This document shows positions 36,268-48,146 of a stretch of 64,000 bases of DNA, in pieces; position 1 is the stretch's first letter; each line of letters opens with the position of its first letter. The notes under the pieces were generated by a model. The model saw nothing but the letters and a program-made list of their open reading frames with translations. It had not been told where the DNA came from and did not search any database. The stretch covers positions 62,001 to 126,000 of the forward strand of contig NZ_JACJVC010000004.1 of the NCBI RefSeq assembly GCF_023369555.1, read 5' to 3'. This stretch comes from Actinomyces sp. AC-20-1 (GTDB lineage Bacteria; Actinomycetota; Actinomycetes; Actinomycetales; Actinomycetaceae). A program made the position numbers and the translations under genes.

Positions 36268-36354
36268 AGCCGGGGGACGGGGCGTCAGCATCCGGGCGGC
36301 AGCCGGGCGCGGCGGGCGGGCCGGACCGGACAAGCCGGGCGGGCGGGCCCGGCG

Positions 36355-36620
36355 TTCCTAGGGTCTTCACAGGGTGGTCGGGGGTGCTCTTTCAGGGTGG
36401 GCGGGTTACATGTGACTCACCGCCGGACGGAACGGGTCGCGAGGGTTGGGGAACCCAGTGACCGGCCCGGACCGAGAGCGGTGAGGGTCCAAGGGAGCCC
36501 TCGCCGCCCGCTCCGGCGAAGGAGGAGCGCTCCCCCTGCTGGGAACCAGGGCGCGGAGCCCCTCATGACGAAGGCCCTCGGGCCCGGGAGAGACAACCCG
36601 GGACCGAGGGCCTCGTCACG
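36355..36620 (+). repeat. Structured 260-bp direct repeat, copy 1 (candidate ncRNA)
   Basis: Matches 36914-37180 at an offset of 559 bp. Positions 36392-36524 (133 bp) are identical in both copies by eye. Internal helices: GGGTT/AACCC around 36443-36456, CGGTGAGGG/CCCTCGCCG (36479-36487 with the arm near 36508), CTCC/GGAG, a variable stem-loop at 36529-36559, and a terminator-like hairpin 36573-36612. In the variable stem-loop the two copies differ in sequence but keep pairing. No ORF is credible. A transcribed structured RNA is likely; an identity with the Actinomyces-1 RNA motif is possible but untested. Confidence 0.7.
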
Positions 36621-36652
36621 CGCGCAGGCAGGCGCTGGCCGGCACTGAGCCC

Positions 36653-36753
36653 TCACTGCATTCACTGAAGGCTCTCACTCAATAGAGTGAGCGCCTCATT
36701 TGATTCAGTGACGACCTCACTTTCTACAGTGAGGACACTCCGATCTTCAGTGA
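36653..36753. promoter_or_regulatory. Operator array A (orphan; TCACT-N6-AGTGA sites every 21-22 bp)
   Basis: Five consecutive sites: a decayed TCACT...ACTGA (36653-36668), TCACTCAATAGAGTGA (36675-36690), TCATTTGATTCAGTGA (36696-36711), TCACTTTCTACAGTGA (36717-36732), and a half site CACTCC...TTCAGTGA ending 36753. Starts are 21-22 bp apart, two helical turns. The array has no gene start beside it. It matches array B at 38929-39051 in unit, period and final half site. Confidence 0.7.
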
Positions 36754-36912
36754 CGACTCGGTCTGGCCGCCGTCGAGGCCCTCGCCCGCGGGGAGGCCAC
36801 TGATGCCGCGATCTGCCGCATCTACCTGGCTTCTCGAGCCAGGGCGGGACACGGCCGAGGTCCGCGCTGCGGCGTGACGACGGCGTCGCGGCGGGATGAT
36901 GGGTGGATCGGA
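36754..36912. other. Non-coding gap with a possible short coding remnant
   Basis: Between array A and repeat copy 2. One plus-strand frame around 36763-36845 reads GLAAVEALARGEATDAAICRIYLASRARAG, which looks protein-like but has no start or length to support a gene. Nothing else is visible. Confidence 0.25.
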
Positions 36913-36913
36913 T

Positions 36914-37180
36914 TTCCTAGGCTCTTCCCAGGCTGGGTGGGGGTGGTCTCTCAGGGTGGGCGGGTTACATGTGACTCACCGCCGGACGGAACGGGTCGCG
37001 AGGGTTGGGGAACCCAGTGACCGGCCCGGACCGAGAGCGGTGAGGGTCCAAGGGAGCCCTCGCCGCCCGCTCCGGCGAAGGAGTGACTGCTCCTCCCCGT
37101 TGGGAACCGGGGAGCGCGAGCACCTCATGACGAAGGCCCTCGGGCCCGGGAGACACCACCCGGGCCCGAGGGCCTCGCCA
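36914..37180 (+). repeat. Structured 260-bp direct repeat, copy 2 (candidate ncRNA)
   Basis: Second copy of 36355-36620. Its variable stem-loop uses TGCTC/GAGCA (37088-37092 with 37118-37122) and CTCCCCG/CGGGGAG (37093-37099 with 37108-37114), with the same CGC bulge and GGGAAC loop as copy 1. The final hairpin GGCCCTCGGGCCCGGG (37135-37150) pairs perfectly with 37159-37174 and also lies just past the stop of the AlbA-domain gene on the other strand, so it may serve as a bidirectional terminator. Confidence 0.7.
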
Positions 37181-37205
37181 CGTGCACGCGCAGGAGCCCG
37201 CGAGG

Positions 37206-38924
37206 TCAGTGCGCGAGGAGGTACTTCCTCCTCCGGCTCTGCGGCGGCGCCGTCGCCTCCACGAGCCCGCGCTCCACAAGATCGCGGAGCAGGGGGCGCA
37301 AGGAGCCTACGCTCCTACCCGTCGCCTCCGAGACCTCATGGATGGACCGGGGCTCATCCGCGCGCAGGACCAGCAGGACCTCGCGCTGGGCCTCGCTGGC
37401 CACGGGCAGGCCGGGGCTGTGCGCAAGCGTGTACGGCCCATCACCACCACCAGTGAGGAGGCCGGTGTCCACAAGTCCCGCGAGGACCCGGCGGCAGTCG
37501 TCGGAGTCGAGACCGAGGTTCTGGCGAAGGTCTCCGGTGGAGACGCTTCCCTTGCGGTGCACGAGAGCGAGCGCGACGTTCTCATGCCGGCTGCGGCCGG
37601 GGGCGTCCGGAAGCTCGGACAGCCAGGCGTCGACCTGTGGGTCGAGGAGCCCGAAGCGGTCAAGACGCACGACGACGTGGTCGACGGTGGACGGACCGTA
37701 GTCGGGGGCACGGAGCCCCTGCTGGCGCATGGCGGAGATCATCCGCGGGACACCAGATCCCTGCTGCTCGGCAACGGTGGAGCGGCCATCACCCAGGGGC
37801 ACCAGGCTGAGGAGCCTGGCAAGGGCCTGGTTGCGCGCCTGAGAACGCCCGTCGGCGACGTTCTCCTTGGTCTTGTCGCCCCAGAACCCACCGGGGCTGG
37901 AGACCTCCACCCGGTCCGGGTAGACGTCGACAGCGACCTGCTGCCCGCGCACCCAGTGCGAGTAGTCACGGTGCATCACGGCATTGGTGATGGCCTCGCG
38001 AAGAACCTCCTCGGGGATCTCTGCGACGTCGCGCCCGCCGGTACCGTCAATGACTCGGTGCACGCGCAGGTTGCGCAGCACCGCGGCAACGGAGTCCTGG
38101 ATCATCCGCGGCAGGGAACCGTCACAGTTCTGACGGTCGATGAAGCGGACGCTCGGGTCCTGCGACTTGTCGACACCGGGGTGCACGGCGACGTCAACAG
38201 TGAGCTGGGGGTACTCCTGCTGCGGATAGGCACCAAGGGCGAGGTACCCGGCCAAGGTCACCTGACCGTCCCGGGTGAGGACGTTGATCCTCTCGAGGGC
38301 GGCTGCGACGTCGTCGGGCGCGATGCCCTCAAGTGCCTGCGAGCGCCCCGCCCGAAGCACGTCAAGAGTTCGGGCCACGGCGTCCTTGGAGAGGTCGGCG
38401 AGACTCGCGCCGGGGACCACCTGGCGGTCCGTGCCATCCAGCTGGTCCTGGGTACGCAGGAGATACACCTCGTAGGGGGTGAGGTGCACGTCCGCGTCGT
38501 CGACCCGCCTGTAGCTGCCGCGCTCGACACCCTGGTCGTAGACGTAGCACGGCATGGCAATGCCGGGTTCAGGTCGGAGCGGGTGGATGGTGAGGAGGAT
38601 GACGTCGTTGCCGTCGACACTTCCACGTGCCAGCTCGTAGTCGGGCACCGGTTGCACCTTCGGACTCTCCCCCAGGGCCCGGGTGAGACCGGCGCGCAGG
38701 CCAGCCATGAGAGCGGGCACGTCGAGACCTGGAACCGAGGCGAACCCGTTGCTCTCGTCCAGTCCGAGGATGACGACGCCGCCGTCGGTGTTCGCGAAGG
38801 CCGACACCGTCTGCCAGACCGTCTTGCTCAGACCTCCTGCGGCGGACTTGGCCTCAACCAGGCCGTCATCAACGCCTTGGCGTCGCAGCCGCGCGACGAG
38901 ACTCTCAAGATCCTCATCAGTCAC
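37206..38924 (-). CDS. AlbA_2-domain putative transcriptional regulator with ATP-binding domain
   Basis: 572 residues of the COG2865 type. N-terminal Schlafen-like AlbA_2 domain (about 10-130: VEAKSAAGGLSKTVWQTVSAFANTDGGVVILGLDE, SYRRVDDADVHLTPYEVYLL), a GHKL-type ATPase-like part (IPEEVLREAITNAVMHRDYSHWVRGQQVAVDVYPDRVEVSSPGGF and GSGVPRMISAMRQQG), and two C-terminal winged HTH-like segments (about 450-565). GTG 38924 is chosen: TACAGT is 6 bases upstream inside the first operator site. A longer frame from 38954 would translate the operators. Proteins of this type often accompany restriction or defence genes; self-repression via array B is inferred. Confidence 0.8.
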   Translation of the reverse strand: MTDEDLESLVARLRRQGVDDGLVEAKSAAGGLSKTVWQTVSAFANTDGGVVILGLDESNGFASVPGLDVPALMAGLRAGLTRALGESPKVQPVPDYELARGSVDGNDVILLTIHPLRPEPGIAMPCYVYDQGVERGSYRRVDDADVHLTPYEVYLLRTQDQLDGTDRQVVPGASLADLSKDAVARTLDVLRAGRSQALEGIAPDDVAAALERINVLTRDGQVTLAGYLALGAYPQQEYPQLTVDVAVHPGVDKSQDPSVRFIDRQNCDGSLPRMIQDSVAAVLRNLRVHRVIDGTGGRDVAEIPEEVLREAITNAVMHRDYSHWVRGQQVAVDVYPDRVEVSSPGGFWGDKTKENVADGRSQARNQALARLLSLVPLGDGRSTVAEQQGSGVPRMISAMRQQGLRAPDYGPSTVDHVVVRLDRFGLLDPQVDAWLSELPDAPGRSRHENVALALVHRKGSVSTGDLRQNLGLDSDDCRRVLAGLVDTGLLTGGGDGPYTLAHSPGLPVASEAQREVLLVLRADEPRSIHEVSEATGRSVGSLRPLLRDLVERGLVEATAPPQSRRRKYLLAH

Positions 38925-38928
38925 ACTG

Positions 38929-39051
38929 TCACTGTACTTCAGTGACAACGTCACTGAAGTACAGTGATGACGTCACTTTATTTAGTGACAAGATCACTGC
39001 ATCGAGTGATGTGCTCACTGTATTGAGTGAAAGCACTCCCTTTTTCAGTGA
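38929..39051. promoter_or_regulatory. Operator array B between regulator and restriction genes
   Basis: Five palindromes plus a half site: TCACTGTACTTCAGTGA (38929-38945), TCACTGAAGTACAGTGA (38951-38967), TCACTTTATTTAGTGA (38973-38988), TCACTGCATCGAGTGA (38994-39009), TCACTGTATTGAGTGA (39015-39030), and CACTCCC...TTCAGTGA (39034-39051). Start-to-start spacing is 21-22 bp. Site 1 covers the -10 (TACAGT, 38931-38936) of the AlbA-domain gene. The array fills the divergent gap to the restriction enzyme gene, so it may govern both directions. Confidence 0.8.
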
Positions 39052-39209: not shown

Positions 39210-40559
39210 GTGGACACCAGGAAGTTCGTCGCCGCGAGGTCCAAGGCGGAAGCGGTCGCGCGACTCTACTCGGCCGCCGACTGCCCTGCGCCCGCTCAGC
39301 CACTGGGACCCGGCAGCAAGGAGCGCAAGGACGTCCTCACAGCGACCGCCTCACGGTTTGCCCTCGACGTCAACACCGCCGCAGCGAAGGACGTGCTCGC
39401 CCGCGAGATCGTGGAGGCCTTTGGTGGCACCTGGGACACGCGCTACTCCTCGACCGGCCAGACCATCACCCTTGACGGTCTCAACGCGGTCCTCGCGCCG
39501 GCCGAGGAGCGCCGTCGGCTCGAGACCGAGCGTGAGCTCCGCTCTCTCGATCCGGCCTACCCGCCCGGCTTCCACCCGGCCCGCGACAAGCTCGAGGTCG
39601 TCCGCCGGATCTCCTCCCTCACTGGCGGTCGGCCGCAGGACCTCGGCCCCGGCAGCAAGGAACGCAAGTCCGTCCTCACGGAGCTCGTCGAGAACCTGTC
39701 GCTCCCCGTCGATGCCCGGCTGTCGAAGACACGCCTTGCCGAGGCAATCACCCGTTACTTCGGCCTCACCTGGACTGACGCCTGCTGGTCCCGTGGGGAG
39801 ACGCTCACTCTCGTCGGCCTCAACACGGTGCTCGCCGGTGCGGAGCAGGAGGTCCGGCGTGGTCTCCACGCCTCACGCACCCGCCTTCTCCAGGAGGCCC
39901 AGCTCCTTGTGTCCGCACTCGCCCACGCCTGCCCCTCCCACTGGGAGGGCCGCGAGTGCGTCCAGCAGATGGTCGACGCCGAGCACGCCAAGTCACGTCA
40001 AACCGAGTGGGTCGGCTGGTACTTCGAGTTCATCGGCCTGCCCGCACTCATCAACGCCTACGGCGGCGGCCCACGACGCGTCGGCGCCACAGAGTTCGAC
40101 TACGCCCGCGCCTTTGTGTGGGACCTCAAGGCCCACGCGCAGCCCAACCTGCGACAGCCTGGGCACGTCACTGGAGAGGCTCCTCTCAACGACCGCGACT
40201 CGATCCTCCGCTGCGTTGAGACGACCGGCTCCCTCGGCTTCCTCGTCCTGTCCGGCTCCTCCGTCCACGACGACGACGGCAGCTTCGACACGTGGCACCG
40301 GAAGATGAGGGGCAGCACGACGGCACGCACGGAGAGGTCCCGCACCCTCAAGGCCGCATTCACACCTGTCACGGTTGACGCCTATGTCTTCCAAGGGATG
40401 AGCGGGCTCGAGAGCGCCCTTGAGAAGAAGGTCCTCACCCCCTTCCATCAAGGTCGGCAGGCCAGTGGCGCCGCTCGCGCCCCCAAGCTCAAGCTCAACC
40501 TCGGCCGGGGACGAGAGGAGGGTTATGTCATGGCGAGCAGTCCACTCACCATGACATGA
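39210..40559 (+). CDS. Putative type II restriction endonuclease with duplicated N-terminal domain
   Basis: 449 residues. Two tandem copies of a domain at about 32-104 and 145-217 each begin LGPGSKERK and end in (L/V)GLN(A/T)VLA.AE. The C-terminal half holds TEFDYARAFVWDLKAHAQPN, where D297...D305-x-K307 fits a PD-(D/E)xK nuclease core. Its place directly before a C5-methyltransferase and a vsr gene makes a cognate restriction enzyme the best reading; I do not recognise the specificity. GC content is visibly lower than that of the flanking chromosome. Leaderless GTG start. Confidence 0.65.
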   Translation: MDTRKFVAARSKAEAVARLYSAADCPAPAQPLGPGSKERKDVLTATASRFALDVNTAAAKDVLAREIVEAFGGTWDTRYSSTGQTITLDGLNAVLAPAEERRRLETERELRSLDPAYPPGFHPARDKLEVVRRISSLTGGRPQDLGPGSKERKSVLTELVENLSLPVDARLSKTRLAEAITRYFGLTWTDACWSRGETLTLVGLNTVLAGAEQEVRRGLHASRTRLLQEAQLLVSALAHACPSHWEGRECVQQMVDAEHAKSRQTEWVGWYFEFIGLPALINAYGGGPRRVGATEFDYARAFVWDLKAHAQPNLRQPGHVTGEAPLNDRDSILRCVETTGSLGFLVLSGSSVHDDDGSFDTWHRKMRGSTTARTERSRTLKAAFTPVTVDAYVFQGMSGLESALEKKVLTPFHQGRQASGAARAPKLKLNLGRGREEGYVMASSPLTMT

Positions 40560-40626
40560 CGGACACCCGCCAAGCTCCCAGCGAAAAGAGCTTCCCTCCG
40601 GTTCGAACATGTGTTTAGCTTTCCCC

Positions 40627-42054
40627 ATGACTGGCACCCGGACGACGAAGGCGGCGATGTCGGCCTCCGCACCTGAGGCCTCCTTCACCTACAGCGACCT
40701 GTTCGCCGGCATCGGCGGCTTCCACGCCGCTCTGTCCGGGATGGGTGGCGGTTGCGTGTACGCCGTCGAGATCGACAGGGACGCCGCCCGCGTCTACCAG
40801 CAGAACTGGGGCCTCGACCCCCTCGGGGACATCACTGTCCATGCCGGGGAGGACGGGGTGGACACCCGGAAGATCCCTGAGCATGACATCCTCGCGGCTG
40901 GCTTCCCCTGCCAGCCCTTCTCCAAGTCCGGCGCCCAGAAGGGCATGGAGGAGACCCGCGGCACCCTGTACTTCAACATCCTGCAGGTGGTGCGTGAGCA
41001 CCACCCCACCGTGCTGCTGCTCGAGAACGTCCGCAACCTCACCGGCCCCCGTCACAAGCACGAGTGGGACGTCATCATCAGCACCCTCCGCGACGAGGGC
41101 TACCACGTCTCCGACACCCCCGCCATCCTCTCCCCCCACCAGATCGCGGCGGACCACGGCGGCCGGCCCCAGGTCCGTGAGCGCGTCTTCATCACCGCCA
41201 CCCACGACCCCGATCACATCGGCGCCCCTGACCCGCAGCCCGTCACACGCCCCCGGGAGCTGTACGGCTCACCGTCGCCAGACTGGAACATTGAGGACAT
41301 CCTTGACGATGAGAGCAGCGAGACCGAGCGCTACGCACTCACGCCTGCAGAAACCCGTTGGATCGACGCCTGGGACGACTGGGTGCAGATGTTTCGCCGT
41401 CACAACGAGCCTGGCACGAAGCTACCCGGCTTCCCGATCTGGGTGGACGCCTGGGCTGATATCGAGGCCTTCGAAGCCGATGTCGAGGCTGGCGAGCACG
41501 AGGACACCCCCTCCTGGAAGCTCAGCTTCCTGAGGAAGAACGCGCTTCTCTTCACCGACAACGCCTCCTGGATCCCCCAGTGGGAGAAGAAGTGGGGGGT
41601 GCACGAGTTCCCACCATCGCGCCGCAAGCTCGAGTGGCAGGCACAGGACTTGGCCTCCCTGTGGGACTGCCTCATGCACCTGCGCCCGTCCGGGCTGCGG
41701 GCCAAACCGCCCACGTATGTGCCCGCACTCGTCGCCATCACCCAGACGAGCATCGTCGGGCCGCGCCGTCGTCGTCTCATGCCGTCTGAGGCCGCGCGCC
41801 TACAGGGCTTCCCCGACTCCTTCTCCTTCGTCGGCCAGCCCGACGCGAGCACCTACAAGCAGCTGGGCAACGGCGTCAACATCGGCGTCGTCTGGAATGT
41901 CCTCAAGCGCCACTGTGAGCGCGACGCAGCGATCCTCGAGACCACTGGGTCGGGGCGACGCATTCTTGCCGCCGTGCGCGAGGCCCCTGACAACCCGGAC
42001 AGCCCTGTGCGAGACGCACTGAGGCGAGCACAGCAGGCCGCCGCCCAGGGCTGA
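40627..42054 (+). CDS. DNA (cytosine-5-)-methyltransferase
   Basis: 475-residue C5-cytosine methyltransferase. Motifs in order: I DLFAGIGGFHAAL, IV GFPCQPFSKSG with the catalytic cysteine, VI LLLENVRNL, VIII GRPQVRERVFI, a target-recognition region of about 200 residues, IX RRRLMPSEAARLQGFPDSF and X YKQLGNGVNIGV. It protects the host against the enzyme encoded just upstream. ATG 40627 is preferred over 40609 because TAGCTT ends 5 bases before it. Vsr follows after 12 bases, so MTase and vsr are one operon. Confidence 0.93.
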   Translation: MTGTRTTKAAMSASAPEASFTYSDLFAGIGGFHAALSGMGGGCVYAVEIDRDAARVYQQNWGLDPLGDITVHAGEDGVDTRKIPEHDILAAGFPCQPFSKSGAQKGMEETRGTLYFNILQVVREHHPTVLLLENVRNLTGPRHKHEWDVIISTLRDEGYHVSDTPAILSPHQIAADHGGRPQVRERVFITATHDPDHIGAPDPQPVTRPRELYGSPSPDWNIEDILDDESSETERYALTPAETRWIDAWDDWVQMFRRHNEPGTKLPGFPIWVDAWADIEAFEADVEAGEHEDTPSWKLSFLRKNALLFTDNASWIPQWEKKWGVHEFPPSRRKLEWQAQDLASLWDCLMHLRPSGLRAKPPTYVPALVAITQTSIVGPRRRRLMPSEAARLQGFPDSFSFVGQPDASTYKQLGNGVNIGVVWNVLKRHCERDAAILETTGSGRRILAAVREAPDNPDSPVRDALRRAQQAAAQG

Positions 42055-42066
42055 GGGGTCCGAACC

Positions 42067-42522
42067 ATGGCCGACGACGCCCTGCACGCACCCGAGCCAG
42101 CGCGCGTGGCCCCGGCTGACACCTCCGTCTCACGCCGTTACGCGGGTCTTGCGCGCCGTGATACCTCCCCTGAGGTGGCGCTGCGGCGCGTGCTGTGGCA
42201 CGCCGGCTTCCGCTACCGGGTGCAGTACAAGGTCCCTGGGTTGCCGCGGCGGAAGATCGACATCGCATTCCCCAGCAAGAAGGTCGCGGTCCAGGTTGAC
42301 GGTTGCTTCTGGCACGGATGTCCAGAGCATGGCAGGGCACCCGGGCGGAACTCCGAGTGGTGGCAGTGGAAGATCGCCCGTAACCAGGCCCGAGACCGCG
42401 ACACCGACGAACGGCTGGCAGCCCTCGGTTGGACGGTTATCCACGTCTGGGAGCACGAGGACCCTGCGGACGCGGCCAACCGCATCGCCAGGACTGTCCA
42501 CGCCCCGCCGAATCGCCTTTAA
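42067..42522 (+). CDS. vsr: Very short patch repair endonuclease
   Basis: 151 residues. VSRRYAGLARRDTSPEVALRRVLWHAGFRYRVQYKVPGLPRRKIDIAFPSKKVAVQVDGCFWHGCPEHG and WQWKIARNQARDRDTDERLAALGWTVIHVWEHE carry the Vsr landmarks, including the catalytic Asp in KIDIAF and the FWHGCPxH zinc/active-site motif. It nicks 5' of T in T:G mismatches left by deamination of 5-methylcytosine, matching the methyltransferase upstream. Length is normal. Confidence 0.93.
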   Translation: MADDALHAPEPARVAPADTSVSRRYAGLARRDTSPEVALRRVLWHAGFRYRVQYKVPGLPRRKIDIAFPSKKVAVQVDGCFWHGCPEHGRAPGRNSEWWQWKIARNQARDRDTDERLAALGWTVIHVWEHEDPADAANRIARTVHAPPNRL

Positions 42523-42597: not shown

Positions 42598-44029
42598 GGC
42601 TCTTCGTAATCGAGGGTGTATCGGGCGGGTGAAGTCTGGGGGCGCGTCGTTGCTTGGATAGGGGTCGAGGTCTTTCGAGGATGGAAGTTCTCACGCTCAC
42701 CATCCGAAAGACCTCGACGTGTCCAACGCTACCTTCCTCGCCCCTGACTTGACCATGTTCTGCCGTCTGGACGAGCTCGGCCTGGAAGTGACGGGCCAGC
42801 ATCTCCAGCCGGATCTCACGATCCTCGAGTGCCGTGTCGTCGAACCGGATGAGTGGTGCCGACGCTGTGGCGGTCAGGGCTCGTGCCGCGACACCGTCGT
42901 TCGCCGCCTGGCGCACGAACCGTTGGGCTGGCTGCCCACCTTGCTACAAGTCCGGGTCCGCCGCTACCGGTGCGGCGAGTGCGGGCACGTGTGGCGCCAG
43001 GACACGAGCAAGGCAGCCGAACCACGATCGAAGCTCTCCCGCCGGGCGCTGCGGTGGGCGCTGGTCGGGCTCGTCACCCAGCACCTGACCGTTGCCCGGG
43101 TCGCCGAGGCCCTGGCTGTGTCCTGGAACACCGCGAACTGTGCCGTGCTGGCCGAAGGCCAGCGTGTCCTGATCAACGACCCCGCCCGGTTCGACGGCGT
43201 GCACGTCGTCGGGGTAGATGAGCATGTTTGGCGGCATACGCGTCGTGGCGACAGGTACGTCACCGTCATCATCGACCTGACCGGCCCACATACCGGCACC
43301 GGTCCCGCCCGGCTGTTGGACATGGTCGAAGGCCGCACGAAGCAAGCATTCAAGTAGTGGCTCGCGGACCGTCCGAAAGCCTGGCGCGATGGCGTCGAGG
43401 TCGTCGCCATGGACGGCTTCACCAGCTACAAGACCGCAACGCTCGAGGAAATGCCTGATGCGGCCCCGGTTCTCGATCCATTTCACGTCGTCCGCTTAGG
43501 GAGTGAAGCGTTGGACGAGTGCCGCCGCGTGCAGCAAGAGCTCTGCGATCGCCACGGCCGGAAGACCGATCCGCTCTACCGCGCCCGCCGCACCCTGCTC
43601 ACCGGCCACAGTTTGCTCACACGCAGCCAGCAAGAACGCCTCGAGGAACTGTTCTCGAACGAACTACACGTCGAGGTGGAAGCCACCTGGGGCATCTACC
43701 AACGCATGATCGCCGCCTACCGCGATCCCGACCGCGCCCGCGGACGAGAAGCGATGCGCGCCGTGATCAGCTCCATCAGCAGCCGCGTCCCCGCCGCGCT
43801 CAAGGAGACCCGTCGCCTTGGCCGCACGCTGACCAAACGCGCCGCCGACGTGCTCGCCTACTTCGACCGACCCGGCACCAGCAACGGGCCAACTGAAGCG
43901 ATCAACGGTCGACTGGAACATCTGCGAGGCAGTGCCCTGGGCTTCCGAAACCTGACCAACTACATCGCCCGATCACTCCTCGAAAGCGGCGGGTTCAGAA
44001 ACCAACTACACCCTCGATTGCGAAGAGCC
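42598..44029 (+). mobile_element. ISL3-family insertion sequence, 1,432 bp
   Basis: Terminal inverted repeats of 22 bp at 42598-42619 (starting GGCTCTTCG) and 44008-44029 (ending CGAAGAGCC) differ at one position. GGCTCTTCG ends are typical of ISL3. The single transposase gene is broken by an amber codon. The 8 bp outside each end do not match, so no target duplication is visible and the flanks may have rearranged. It sits directly downstream of vsr. Confidence 0.85.
42664..42718 (+). promoter_or_regulatory. Hairpin before the transposase start codon
   Basis: 42664-42684 (GTCGAGGTCTTTCG then GGATGG) pairs with 42700-42718 (CCATCC then GAAAGACCTCGAC), giving a stem of about 19 bp with one bulge that ends at the base before GTG 42719. 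Read-through RNA from outside would fold this and hide the start, a known way for IS elements to block impinging transcription. Confidence 0.6.
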
Positions 44030-44074
44030 TGTAATTGGACACACATGAATTATATACCGGCCACCCCAAATTAA
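42719..44074 (+). pseudogene. ISL3 transposase interrupted by an in-frame amber codon
   Basis: Zinc-ribbon N-terminus (CRRCGGQGSC, YRCGECGHVWRQD), HTH region, and DDE-type catalytic domain (HVVGVDEHVWRH, VAMDGFTSYK, VLDPFHVVRLGSEALDECRR, then GPTEAINGRLEHLRGSALGFRNLTNYIARSLL). TAG at 43355-43357 falls between K212 (...GRTKQAFK) and W (...WLADRPKAW), with the frame otherwise intact on both sides. The second half (from 43358) runs past the right inverted repeat and stops at 44072-44074 in flanking DNA. Inactive unless the amber codon is read through. Confidence 0.85.
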
Positions 44075-45215: not shown

Positions 45216-45291
45216 GCGGCCAGGCTAGCGGCCGTCGACGCCGGTCGTCGCGCCCGGATTCGTGTCACCCCGCCGTGGCATCATCGTCGGT

Positions 45292-46929
45292 ATGGACAGC
45301 ACCCCGGCCGTGTCGAAGAGCCAGGCCTACACCATCGTCGAACTGCGTGAGCTCATGCGCGCCGGCGGGCTGCGCGTCCCGCAGTTCCAGCGCTCCTTCC
45401 GGTGGGAGGCGAAAGACGTCCGGGACCTGCTCGACTCCATCCTCCGGGGGTACCCCATTGGCAGCCTGCTCCTGTGGCAGCGCCCCGCCCCGCCCGAGCG
45501 GCTAACGATCGGTGCGCTGCGCGTCGACGCGCCTGAGCGCCAGGACGCCCTGTGGGTGGTGGACGGCCAGCAACGCGTCACCAGCCTCGTCAATGCCGTT
45601 GACCCCGAGGGCGCACAAGACCCGCGCTTCCTCCTCGGCTACTCCCTCAGACACCACGAGATCGTCAGCGGGCGCCGGCTCGATGACCCTCTGGTGGTTC
45701 CGCTGCCGGACCTGTTCGACTTCGGGCGGGCGCTGGGCTGGCTCGCCAGCAACCCGGACGCCGCCAAGTACGCCGAGCACATCCAGGACGTGACCGGCAG
45801 GCTCAACCGATTCACTGTCCCGGCCACCGTCATGACTCAGGCCGATGAGAAAGTCCTTCGTGAGGTCTTCGACCGGATCAACTCCCGCGGGGAGCCCCTG
45901 AGCGCCGCCGAGATCTTCAACGCCCTCCACGGCGAGCCGGACGCGGGACGCACGACGGCGGACATCGCGCTGAGTGTTGACGCCCAGACGCGTTTCGGCC
46001 AGCTGGGCGAGCAGGTCATCATCCAGGCCCTCTTCGTGCGCCGGCATCCAGACATCACCCGGGACGTCCACGACGAGTTCTCGGACAGCCGTCGCCGCGT
46101 CAGCGACTTCCCGGACGAGGACGAGGAGCAGGCTTACGAGTCCACCGAGCGGGCCCTCGTCGCCGCCGTGCGCTTCCTCCAGGAGCATTGTGGCATCCCC
46201 CATCTGACATTCCTCCCCTTCCGCTTCCAACTCCTCGTGCTCGTCCGTTTCTTCGCGCTCTTCCCCACCCCGCACGAGCGCAACCTCGAGCTGCTCACCC
46301 GCTGGTTCTGGCGTACGAGCACGGGGGCCGACAAGCTAGGGATCAGCGGGTCGCAGACGGACTTGCGCGCCTGGGCCGGACGCGTCGTGTGCAGCGAGTC
46401 GGCATCAGTTCAACAACTCCTCGACGCCGCCCGGCTGCCCGACGCGCCACAGGTCCCTGACCTGTCTGTCTTCCGCACAACACGCTCTAGCTCCAAGATG
46501 ATCCTCGCCGCCCTCTGGGACCGGCAACCCATCGACCCTGAGACCGGAGAGGGGCTCACACGCGACGCGCTCGCCGAAGCCCTTGAGGGGGAAACGACAC
46601 CACGGGCGATCGTCACCGACCTCGTCATACCATCGGCCCTGCCGAACAACGCCGCCGTCGCGGCCGCCAAGCTGATCTCACTGAGAGACCGTCAAGACCT
46701 GCTGGCGCTCCTCACCCCCGCCAGCGATCTCACCTCCCTGCTCCTCGATAAGGCCATGCTCGACTGCCTCCAGCACAACGACGTCGACGGGTTCCTCAGC
46801 CTCAGGAAGGACGCGATGCACCGCTACCTCACCGACTTCCTCGTAGTTCGCACTGCCTGGGGTCAGGAGGACACACCACCGCTGACCGACTTCGTCTTCG
46901 ACGGCGACGACGCCGGCGGTGCCTCATGA
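45292..46929 (+). CDS. DUF262 (GmrSD-type) protein
   Basis: 545 residues. The N-terminal DUF262 domain, a ParB/Srx-like fold, shows LRVPQFQRSFRWEAKDVRDLLDSILRGYPIGSLLLW and VVDGQQRVTSL (DGQQR at 91-95), then FDRINSRGEPLSAAEIFNALHGEP. In GmrSD and related type IV restriction enzymes this domain hydrolyses nucleotides and is joined to a DUF1524 HNH nuclease; no HNH motif is visible here. The stop overlaps the start of the HipA-like gene (ATGA), so the products are probably made together. ATG 45292 is preferred over an in-frame GTG at 45262. Confidence 0.8.
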   Translation: MDSTPAVSKSQAYTIVELRELMRAGGLRVPQFQRSFRWEAKDVRDLLDSILRGYPIGSLLLWQRPAPPERLTIGALRVDAPERQDALWVVDGQQRVTSLVNAVDPEGAQDPRFLLGYSLRHHEIVSGRRLDDPLVVPLPDLFDFGRALGWLASNPDAAKYAEHIQDVTGRLNRFTVPATVMTQADEKVLREVFDRINSRGEPLSAAEIFNALHGEPDAGRTTADIALSVDAQTRFGQLGEQVIIQALFVRRHPDITRDVHDEFSDSRRRVSDFPDEDEEQAYESTERALVAAVRFLQEHCGIPHLTFLPFRFQLLVLVRFFALFPTPHERNLELLTRWFWRTSTGADKLGISGSQTDLRAWAGRVVCSESASVQQLLDAARLPDAPQVPDLSVFRTTRSSSKMILAALWDRQPIDPETGEGLTRDALAEALEGETTPRAIVTDLVIPSALPNNAAVAAAKLISLRDRQDLLALLTPASDLTSLLLDKAMLDCLQHNDVDGFLSLRKDAMHRYLTDFLVVRTAWGQEDTPPLTDFVFDGDDAGGAS

Positions 46930-48146
46930 CCGAGGCCGTCTACGCAGTCCTCCTCCACGGCGAGCACATCGGCACGATCCAGCGTCGCGACACCGACACC
47001 ACCTTCACGATCTTCACCTTCGACCGCGACTACTGGGACCGGCCGGACCGGAGGGTGCTCGGCCGCTGGTTCGAGGACCACCCGCGCAAACGTCCCCGGG
47101 CGAACAACCGTGTTCCCGCGTGGTTCTCCAACCTGCTGCCCGAGGGCCGCCTGCGCGAGCTCATCGCCCGTGAACAGGGCGTGAACGCTCACAGGGAGAT
47201 GGACCTCCTCGAACGCATCGGCGCCGACCTGCCCGGGGCCGCCGTCGTCACCCTCGACCCGAACCAGGAAGTCGACGCTACTTTCGATGACGCCGTCGCC
47301 CCCCAGCGCCCAGCCTCCGTTGTGCCCCCCGGCCCCCGCCGAGCCTCCCTCGCGGGCATGGCGCTGAAGTTCGCCATGAGTCGGCGTGATGGCCGGCTCG
47401 TCCTGCCCGCCCACGGCGAGGACGGGGACTGGATCCTCAAGATCCCCGACTCCGCCTACCCAGGTCTGCCCGCCAACGAGCTCGCCGTCATGCACCTGGC
47501 CGCCCGGGTGGGGATCGAGGTGCCCGAGACTGCCCTGTGGCACCGCGACAGCATCGACGACCTCGGCCCGGGCGCCTGGCCGTCGGAGGAGACCCAGGCC
47601 TACGCGGTCCGCCGCTTCGACCGCTCTCCCACCGGACGCATCCACATTGAGGACTTTGCCCAGGTGCTCGGCGTGCACGGCATCGGCGAGGGCAAGTACC
47701 ACTCCAACGTCGAGACCGTCCTCGGCCTGGCCTGGCGCGGGCAGGACCACGAGTCCCTCCAGGAGGCCGTGCGCCGCAGCGTCTTCAACCTGCTCGTCGG
47801 CAACGGAGACGCCCACCTGAAGAACTGGTCGCTCATCTACCCAGACGGTAAGCGAGCCCGGCTCTCACCCGCCTACGACTTAGTGTGCACGGGGGTGATT
47901 CCGAACCACGCGGAGCTCGCCCTGCCCTTCCTCGGCGCCACCCGCCTGACCGAGCTCCGGCGCGAGCACTTCGCCCGGCTCCAGGACATGCTGGGGGTCG
48001 GGGACACGGACGTCCTCGACGTCGTCGATGACACTCTCGACCGCTTCTGCGAGACGTGGGCCGAGGGCACTGTCGCCCCCGAGCCCGTGGCCGAGTGGAT
48101 CGACTCGCACCTGGCGGGCACCCGGCACCGGCTCCTCGGGGACTGA
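46926..48146 (+). CDS. HipA-like serine/threonine kinase
   Basis: 406 residues. N-terminal HipA_N/couple domain (VYAVLLHGEHIGTIQRRD...VLGRWFED...WFSNLLPEGRLRELI), Gly-rich SLAGMALKFAMS at 141-152 (the equivalent of the autophosphorylated serine loop of E. coli HipA), WILKIPD with the ATP-binding lysine, catalytic GNGDAHLKNW at 292-301 and SPAYDLV with the metal-binding Asp near 318. HipA toxins phosphorylate aminoacyl-tRNA synthetases to induce persistence. No HipB-type HTH gene is next to it; its partner by overlap is the DUF262 gene, which is unusual. Confidence 0.85.
   Translation: MTEAVYAVLLHGEHIGTIQRRDTDTTFTIFTFDRDYWDRPDRRVLGRWFEDHPRKRPRANNRVPAWFSNLLPEGRLRELIAREQGVNAHREMDLLERIGADLPGAAVVTLDPNQEVDATFDDAVAPQRPASVVPPGPRRASLAGMALKFAMSRRDGRLVLPAHGEDGDWILKIPDSAYPGLPANELAVMHLAARVGIEVPETALWHRDSIDDLGPGAWPSEETQAYAVRRFDRSPTGRIHIEDFAQVLGVHGIGEGKYHSNVETVLGLAWRGQDHESLQEAVRRSVFNLLVGNGDAHLKNWSLIYPDGKRARLSPAYDLVCTGVIPNHAELALPFLGATRLTELRREHFARLQDMLGVGDTDVLDVVDDTLDRFCETWAEGTVAPEPVAEWIDSHLAGTRHRLLGD

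Follow-up and report, generated by a model that had tools for sequence, protein, structure and literature searches.

An array of short palindromic operators directly precedes the gene for a 572-residue protein with SLFN_AlbA_2, HATPase_c_4 and winged-helix domains in the 64-kb stretch of Actinomyces DNA analysed here (the window), and this array is probably the self-operator of that gene, in which an effector fused to its own repressor would use its C-terminal winged helix to silence its own promoter cooperatively. The gene, its putative promoter element and the operators (array A) are as follows.

37206..38924, minus strand: gene for a 572-aa protein with SLFN_AlbA_2, HATPase_c_4, a middle winged helix and a C-terminal MarR-like winged helix (profile matches, alignment, model); predicted autorepressor and effector
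38936..38931, minus strand: -10-like hexamer TACAGT inside operator 1, 6 nt before the GTG at 38924; predicted leaderless transcript
38929..38945, no strand: operator 1, gene-proximal, TCACTGTACTTCAGTGA, with a 7-bp spacer; separated from the start codon by 4 nt; contains the minus-strand TACAGT
38951..38967, no strand: operator 2, TCACTGAAGTACAGTGA, exact pattern match
38973..38988, no strand: operator 3, TCACTTTATTTAGTGA, exact pattern match
38994..39009, no strand: operator 4, TCACTGCATCGAGTGA, exact pattern match
39015..39030, no strand: operator 5, TCACTGTATTGAGTGA, exact pattern match
39036..39051, no strand: operator 6, degenerate; right half AGTGA kept at 39047-39051, left half gone

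A pattern scan of the window found five exact TCACT-N6/7-AGTGA sites at 38929-39030, starting at 38929, 38951, 38973, 38994 and 39015 with spacers of N7, N7, N6, N6 and N6. The original prediction had placed five operators in a range reaching to 39051; the five sites are borne out as exact matches, whereas the range itself spans six places, the sixth being half-degenerate. The right halves across array A follow each other at steps of 22, 21, 21, 21 and 21 bp, so that half-sites occur about once per helical turn in alternating orientation, in agreement with the proposed operator-like array on one face of the helix. The exact pattern with spacers of N5-8 has seven matches in the window against 0.08 expected, and none of 100 shuffles reached at least seven; two of the seven are part of a second array at 36653-36753. 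A loose pattern (N6, up to two mismatches) shows no enrichment in the 64-kb window (12 matches versus 11.4 expected), and the case for the array thus lies in the exact sites and their clustering. Outside the arrays, the exact pattern matches at just two isolated places in the 2.7 Mb genome, fewer than the seven of a reversed control pattern, so there is no sign of a regulon, and a genome-wide regulon was rejected as an explanation. A looser array pattern has one additional place in this genome (C42:147671).

The array is fixed in position relative to the gene. The proximal operator ends 4 nt (nine genomes) or 5 nt (one genome) before the start codon and has a 7-bp spacer in all ten genomes with an intact 5′ end, a count that includes the window and from which G005, G017 and G021 were dropped out of 13, their 5′ ends being lost or altered. 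Furthermore, eight of the ten have a TANNNT hexamer six or seven nt upstream of the start codon, matching the earlier proposal that site 1 covers the −10 of this gene. A hexamer so near the start codon suggests a leaderless transcript with its predicted −10 inside the proximal operator. A simple scan with a sigma-70 consensus detected no promoter.

Homologues were found in 38 of the 59 genomes searched (the gene's own included). Array sites lie near the gene in every one of the ten closest homologues outside the window (57-85% identity). Nine of them carry the array upstream; the remaining one, G021, is the closest sequence relative of the window gene, has lost its 5′ end and retains a downstream array alone. 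A genus scan yielded two further orthologues (G059 and G062). The original prediction had staked itself on arrays lying before close homologues, and they are present in 10/10 with an intact 5′ end. At 19 more distant loci there are zero to two isolated TCACT/AGTGA sites and no array of that motif. Broken or shortened copies of the gene are frequent (G005, G013, G017, G021 and G031), which fits the pattern as known for costly genes. In G021 (L045, 6046-9187), the truncated orthologue adjoins an HNH nuclease gene and a further gene of the SLFN_AlbA_2/HATPase_c_4 type.

The product of the gene at 37206-38924, which we take to be a COG2865-type protein, matches SLFN_AlbA_2 (PF04326; 34.6 bits, cut-off 25.3), HATPase_c_4 (PF13749; 74.2 bits, cut-off 26) and, at its C terminus, MarR_2 (32.1 bits, cut-off 27). 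The predicted structure of the 572-aa protein (pLDDT 89.4) also contains this C-terminal winged helix, and its structural matches include Schlafen N-domains and winged-helix repressors. The C-terminal winged helix structurally resembles Z-DNA and RNA binders too (VIA-align, mostly covering residues 505-572). In an alignment of 59 sequences (58 of the best 80 homologues plus the window protein), an acidic triad is conserved, with D/E19 and E24 in 59/59 and an acidic residue at position 57 in 58/59 (E in 57, D in 1), and the GHKL residues E310, N314, H318 and R319 (E..N..H-R motif) are invariant. Of these sequences, 58 align over the C-terminal winged helix, the remaining one being cut by a contig end, and 36 over the middle winged region. 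Scans of the protein gave only MsvR in NCBIfam, at 18.6 bits against a cut-off of 220, and only weak domain matches in PADLOC, the best being pAgo and Aga proteins. The conserved acidic and GHKL residues make an RNase-like, ATP-gated effector plausible.

We infer from this arrangement how the array could work. The C-terminal winged helix, with its recognition helix at about residues 539-551 in the model, would bind the half-sites, about one per turn and in alternating orientation, along about 120 bp. Neighbouring molecules would help each other, so that little protein would suffice to cover the core promoter and the start region and to silence the gene almost completely, the proximal operator containing the −10 of the probably leaderless promoter. 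The Schlafen-type N-terminal domain, which bears the acidic triad, and the ATP-binding GHKL domain would likely act as effector and sensor, and a signal such as infection or damage may cause occupancy to be lost, giving a burst of protein. A bolder version would make the array a polymerisation platform, which not only silences the gene but also holds the ATPase/nuclease inactive on the DNA, such that release upon infection or damage would free the protein and open the promoter at once; DNA binding would then be a built-in antitoxin, and the family a large class of single-gene modules. We regard this version as unlikely.

Arrays of other spellings appear to stand at the same place before distant homologues. 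Inspection of the distant homologues described above had hinted at other phased repeats there, and a separate search supplied loci for a test: the best 80 of 536, these 80 being nearly all from Actinomycetota, of which 77 were usable (L059 and L094 have too little upstream DNA, and the N terminus of L098 is unmatched), with start codons set by alignment to the window protein, which may be off. In the 120 bp upstream, 7-mers that recur in direct or inverted orientation take up a median of 45 bp (n = 77) versus 14 in controls (n = 183; Mann-Whitney p 2.5e-19), for a measure picked after inspection of the same, related loci. As controls we took the regions before other open frames of these loci; codon bias served to pick the frames, and some may therefore lie inside operons. 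At least 42 bp of recurring 7-mers were found in 46/77 homologue regions versus 21/183 controls, and eight-mers with one mismatch reach at least five copies in 30/77 versus 6/165. Sets reduced to 41, 29 and 16 representatives gave medians of 42, 45 and 45.5 versus 14, 14 and 16 (p 1.4e-9, 3.3e-9 and 1.3e-4). Regions before MarR genes, a winged-helix control that presumes symmetrical flanks, have a median of 19 (n = 30) with 2/30 reaching at least 42 bp, or 28 and 6/30 if the best start codon is chosen each time. The spacings of direct repeats peak at 12 bp (30/77 loci versus 2/183), at 20-21 bp and at 24 bp, and the spelling varies: a Frankia carries GCTAGTATGATA in steps of 12 bp, Actinoplanes relatives carry CTTCACA, and loci of Corynebacterium and Arcanobacterium carry AACACT.

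By lag autocorrelation, 10 of the 19 distant loci scored above every one of 20 shuffles; of the ten close loci, the test failed for L016, L019, L024 and L027 and picked a stretch outside the array in L018. A comparison of operon with stand-alone members was uninformative, with four possible operon cases among the 77. In a small, hand-picked sample of homologues from plasmid and phage records (14 of 16 fetched loci used), four reach 42 bp of recurring 7-mers (from S. epidermidis, L. iners, a Chlorohelix plasmid and a gut phage-labelled contig) and ten remain below, three proteobacterial ones at 0. Viral spread was considered and rejected; a scan of viral_contigs by short peptides found no relative, and distant homologues occur in 34 phage-collection records. 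Two of these, Gordonia phage Nymphadora gp38 (L203) and Mycobacterium phage Squirty gp31 (L204), both annotated as DNA helicase, lie next to or near integrase genes and have modest repeats (37 bp in one, 26 bp in the other); they may conceivably take part in lysogeny control. Other members lie between the S and R subunit genes of a type I restriction operon in Pseudoalteromonas (L201) and between brxC and pglX in a BREX operon in Azotobacter (L202), both with no clear upstream array.

The spelling of the operators weakly follows the sequence of the winged helix. With 6-mers (55 sequences), operator similarity correlates with recognition-helix identity at a partial r of 0.194 once the other regions are removed (0/1000 permutations), compared with 0.102 for the rest of the winged domain (1/1000) and 0.056 for residues 1-430 (67/1000). 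With 5-mers (58 sequences), the respective values are 0.127, 0.125 and 0.08 (0, 0 and 13 per 1000), so that in one of the two measures the recognition helix has hardly any advantage over the wider winged domain. An earlier, whole-domain version of the correlation gave 0.145 versus 0.103. Among distant pairs, operator similarity is 0.025 where the helices are at least 50% identical (n = 57) versus 0.011 for the others (n = 1034); no 6-mer excess is seen in the four distant pairs whose helices reach 60% identity or more (0.009). These values, though the effect is small, suggest that the array is read by the winged domain of the protein itself. Together with the array following the gene in close orthologues and the winged helix being aligned in 58/59 sequences, they agree with the earlier naming of the AlbA/GHKL protein as the likely binder.

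Alternatively, another DNA-binding protein, such as a global regulator, could bind the array, with the AlbA-domain protein merely its target. There are precedents for such a division of labour, since the separate small repressor RptR acts through repeats in a defence-island promoter (PMC12255303) and TrlG has a separate, regulator-like partner, TrlR (PMC7554251). Within the genus, however, arrays of the motif lie mainly beside the SLFN/GHKL gene or where the gene may have been lost; unrelated motifs occupy the same place in relatives, so that the regulator would have to change each time; and the motif weakly tracks a winged helix that belongs to the gene itself and is nearly universal in the sample. 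We therefore consider a foreign binder quite improbable, and binding by the protein itself remains our preferred reading.

On the other side of the array lies a restriction operon.

39210..40559, plus strand: predicted type II restriction enzyme (PADLOC REase_II, E 1.6e-9); without a Pfam or NCBIfam match
40609..42054, plus strand: C5-cytosine methyltransferase
42067..42522, plus strand: Vsr mismatch endonuclease

The original prediction had the far end of the array approach the promoter of the restriction gene. A shared divergent operator, serving the restriction operon along with or instead of the AlbA gene, would suit a divergent gene pair with the array in between, and some relatives do lie in or near defence loci. 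However, the far end of array A is 158 bp short of the restriction gene's GTG (39210), and so the array falls short of that gene's core promoter. Furthermore, in G013 (L049) the homologous restriction-methylase-Vsr operon (72-78% identity) is found on the 3′ side of the AlbA gene and has no array before it. Among ten orthologue loci, restriction and methylase genes were found in one only and the Vsr gene in two, the array still being there in the nine whose examined flanking DNA has no restriction and methylase genes. On the distance and the G013 arrangement, an operator of the restriction gene was rejected, the part of the original prediction that is not supported, and a shared one is quite improbable. 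The fixed distance to the start codon in 10/10 genomes and the operon on the other side in G013 instead assign the array, on comparative grounds, to the SLFN_AlbA_2/HATPase_c_4 gene, not to the restriction gene. The restriction and AlbA modules keep company in different arrangements. As for control of the C-protein type, the restriction gene is not immediately preceded by a small HTH controller gene; its divergent neighbour encodes the 572-aa SLFN/GHKL protein. Directly after the Vsr gene, an ISL3-type transposase occupies two open frames (42719-44074; 212 and 221 aa), the first matching the ISL3 HTH weakly, and at 45262-48146 a GmrSD_N-domain gene is followed by a HipA-type gene with overlapping ends, so that the region holds more defence or stress genes.

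In the genus, the pattern TCASTN6-7ASTGAN4-6TCAST occurs in 21 of 41 genomes, with two matches overall for the reversed control. In 13 of the 21, the array lies beside a close homologue of the gene or a broken form of it; G061 has a single match of the pattern. Six genomes (G012, G014, G015, G020, G034 and G060) have an array with no adjoining gene, so the array can stand alone, and such arrays could have a use of their own. In two of them a match to the end of the gene lies no more than about 50 bp past the array, covering the last 19 codons in G015 (84% identical, E 7e-6) and, weakly, the last 22 codons in G034 (E 0.046); the flanking DNA examined in G012, G014, G060 and G020 yielded no gene traces near the arrays. 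G016 and one place in G020 (L183 and L169, about 1501-1560) share a long TCACT/AGTGA palindrome between convergent frames, which was judged by eye to be a two-way terminator and was rejected as an array.

Beyond the 3′ end of the gene, the window holds a second array and two copies of a structured RNA.

36653..36753, no strand: array B, decayed, about five sites, mostly imperfect, two of them exact; some 450 bp past the gene's 3′ end
36416..36524, plus strand: Actinomyces-1 RNA (RF02928), copy 1; hairpin at 36572-36613
36975..37083, plus strand: Actinomyces-1 RNA (RF02928), copy 2; hairpin at 37134-37175, next to the 3′ end of the gene

Array B is most likely the scar of a lost second copy of the gene. 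It lies between the two Actinomyces-1 RNA copies, as does an array in G021; the copies in the window (36350-37197) are in tandem, with a strong hairpin downstream of each. The RNA is present in 41/41 genus genomes, and copies lie near the AlbA unit in G000, G021, G005 and G022 and on both its sides in G030, as if they marked an insertion hot spot. The array as a regular companion of the RNA was rejected: among the matches listed, taking the best per genome, array-like spacing was found at just 4 of 30 RNA loci, three with the gene and one with a scar. That the array is at heart a structural or mobile-DNA element (a centromere-like site, a recombination end or replication iterons), with transcription control secondary, is highly improbable: the six arrays without the gene, the several units near Actinomyces-1 RNA copies and the overlap of centromere arrays such as the omega parS heptads with promoters (PMC9499535) would allow it, but the exact placement 4-5 nt before the start codon (10/10), the scan of eight window proteins, which turned up no domain for partition or replication, and the gene-end matches after the G015 and (weakly) G034 arrays, as for a gene scar, argue against it.

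As a self-operator, the array has parallels in known systems. Omega, the ParB of pSM19035, binds 7-10 short consecutive non-palindromic repeats that overlap promoters, including that of its own gene, a single repeat being bound weakly and two neighbouring repeats strongly (PMC9499535). Here too, an array of repeats overlaps the putative promoter of the predicted binder's own gene. However, omega is a ribbon-helix-helix protein that reads 7-bp repeats and serves plasmid partition with ParA (PMC9499535), whereas the present protein has a winged helix fused to Schlafen and GHKL domains and steps of about 10.5 bp; there are no 7-bp heptads, the right halves stepping by 21-22 bp, and no ParA among the eight window proteins scanned. 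RptR represses its own promoter through repeats overlapping the −10 in a restriction/DarTG defence island (PMC12255303), and array A would share with it this overlap, along with a restriction-linked defence locus. RptR differs in being a small stand-alone repressor with three repeats containing the palindrome TAGCTA, in a type I system, and the part of that report consulted mentions neither Schlafen nor AlbA (PMC12255303). By analogy, the array would work like omega/parS in its architecture and resembles RptR in its context, and is a member of neither.

The closest counterparts of the protein are likewise partial. TrlG of the Photorhabdus temperature-restriction locus, which is tied to growth arrest and has relatives near restriction genes, has the same two Pfam domains (Alba_2 and HATPase_c_4), but the regulator-like TrlR is encoded by a separate gene, and an operator array is not mentioned in the part of that source consulted (PMC7554251). 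COG2865 is one half of an uncharacterised, predicted Xre-COG2865 toxin-antitoxin pair, a stress module with a DNA-binding partner (PMC5308263), whereas here the DNA-binding part is fused; no Xre-type HTH was found among the eight window proteins scanned. The solved relative 3LMM (Corynebacterium diphtheriae DIP2311) is listed as an uncharacterised protein, and in the open-access papers searched no operator array was described for COG2865-type proteins. The vertebrate Schlafen N-terminal RNase SLFN13, with active-site residues E205, E210 and D248, shares the AlbA_2-type fold and an acidic triad matched by spacing only, acid-x4-E with the next acid 33 residues on here versus 38 in SLFN13 (PMC5862951). 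SLFN13 is an RNase, whereas the 37206-38924 product is a predicted nuclease, remotely similar in sequence and structure.

A limited search of the open-access literature found no description of arrays before SLFN_AlbA_2/HATPase_c_4 genes. We therefore claim only modestly that an array before a SLFN/GHKL/winged-helix gene is new; autoregulatory operator arrays as such are already known. Several bacterial phyla have proteins with SLFN_AlbA_2 and HATPase_c_4 domains; they go by vague names (RNA-binding, ATP-binding, helicase), and some are encoded within restriction or BREX operons. A phased self-operator with a spelling that differs between clades would give this family a first testable regulatory logic and a way of reading its DNA specificity from sequence, and it hints that its members may be tightly silenced effectors rather than general regulators.
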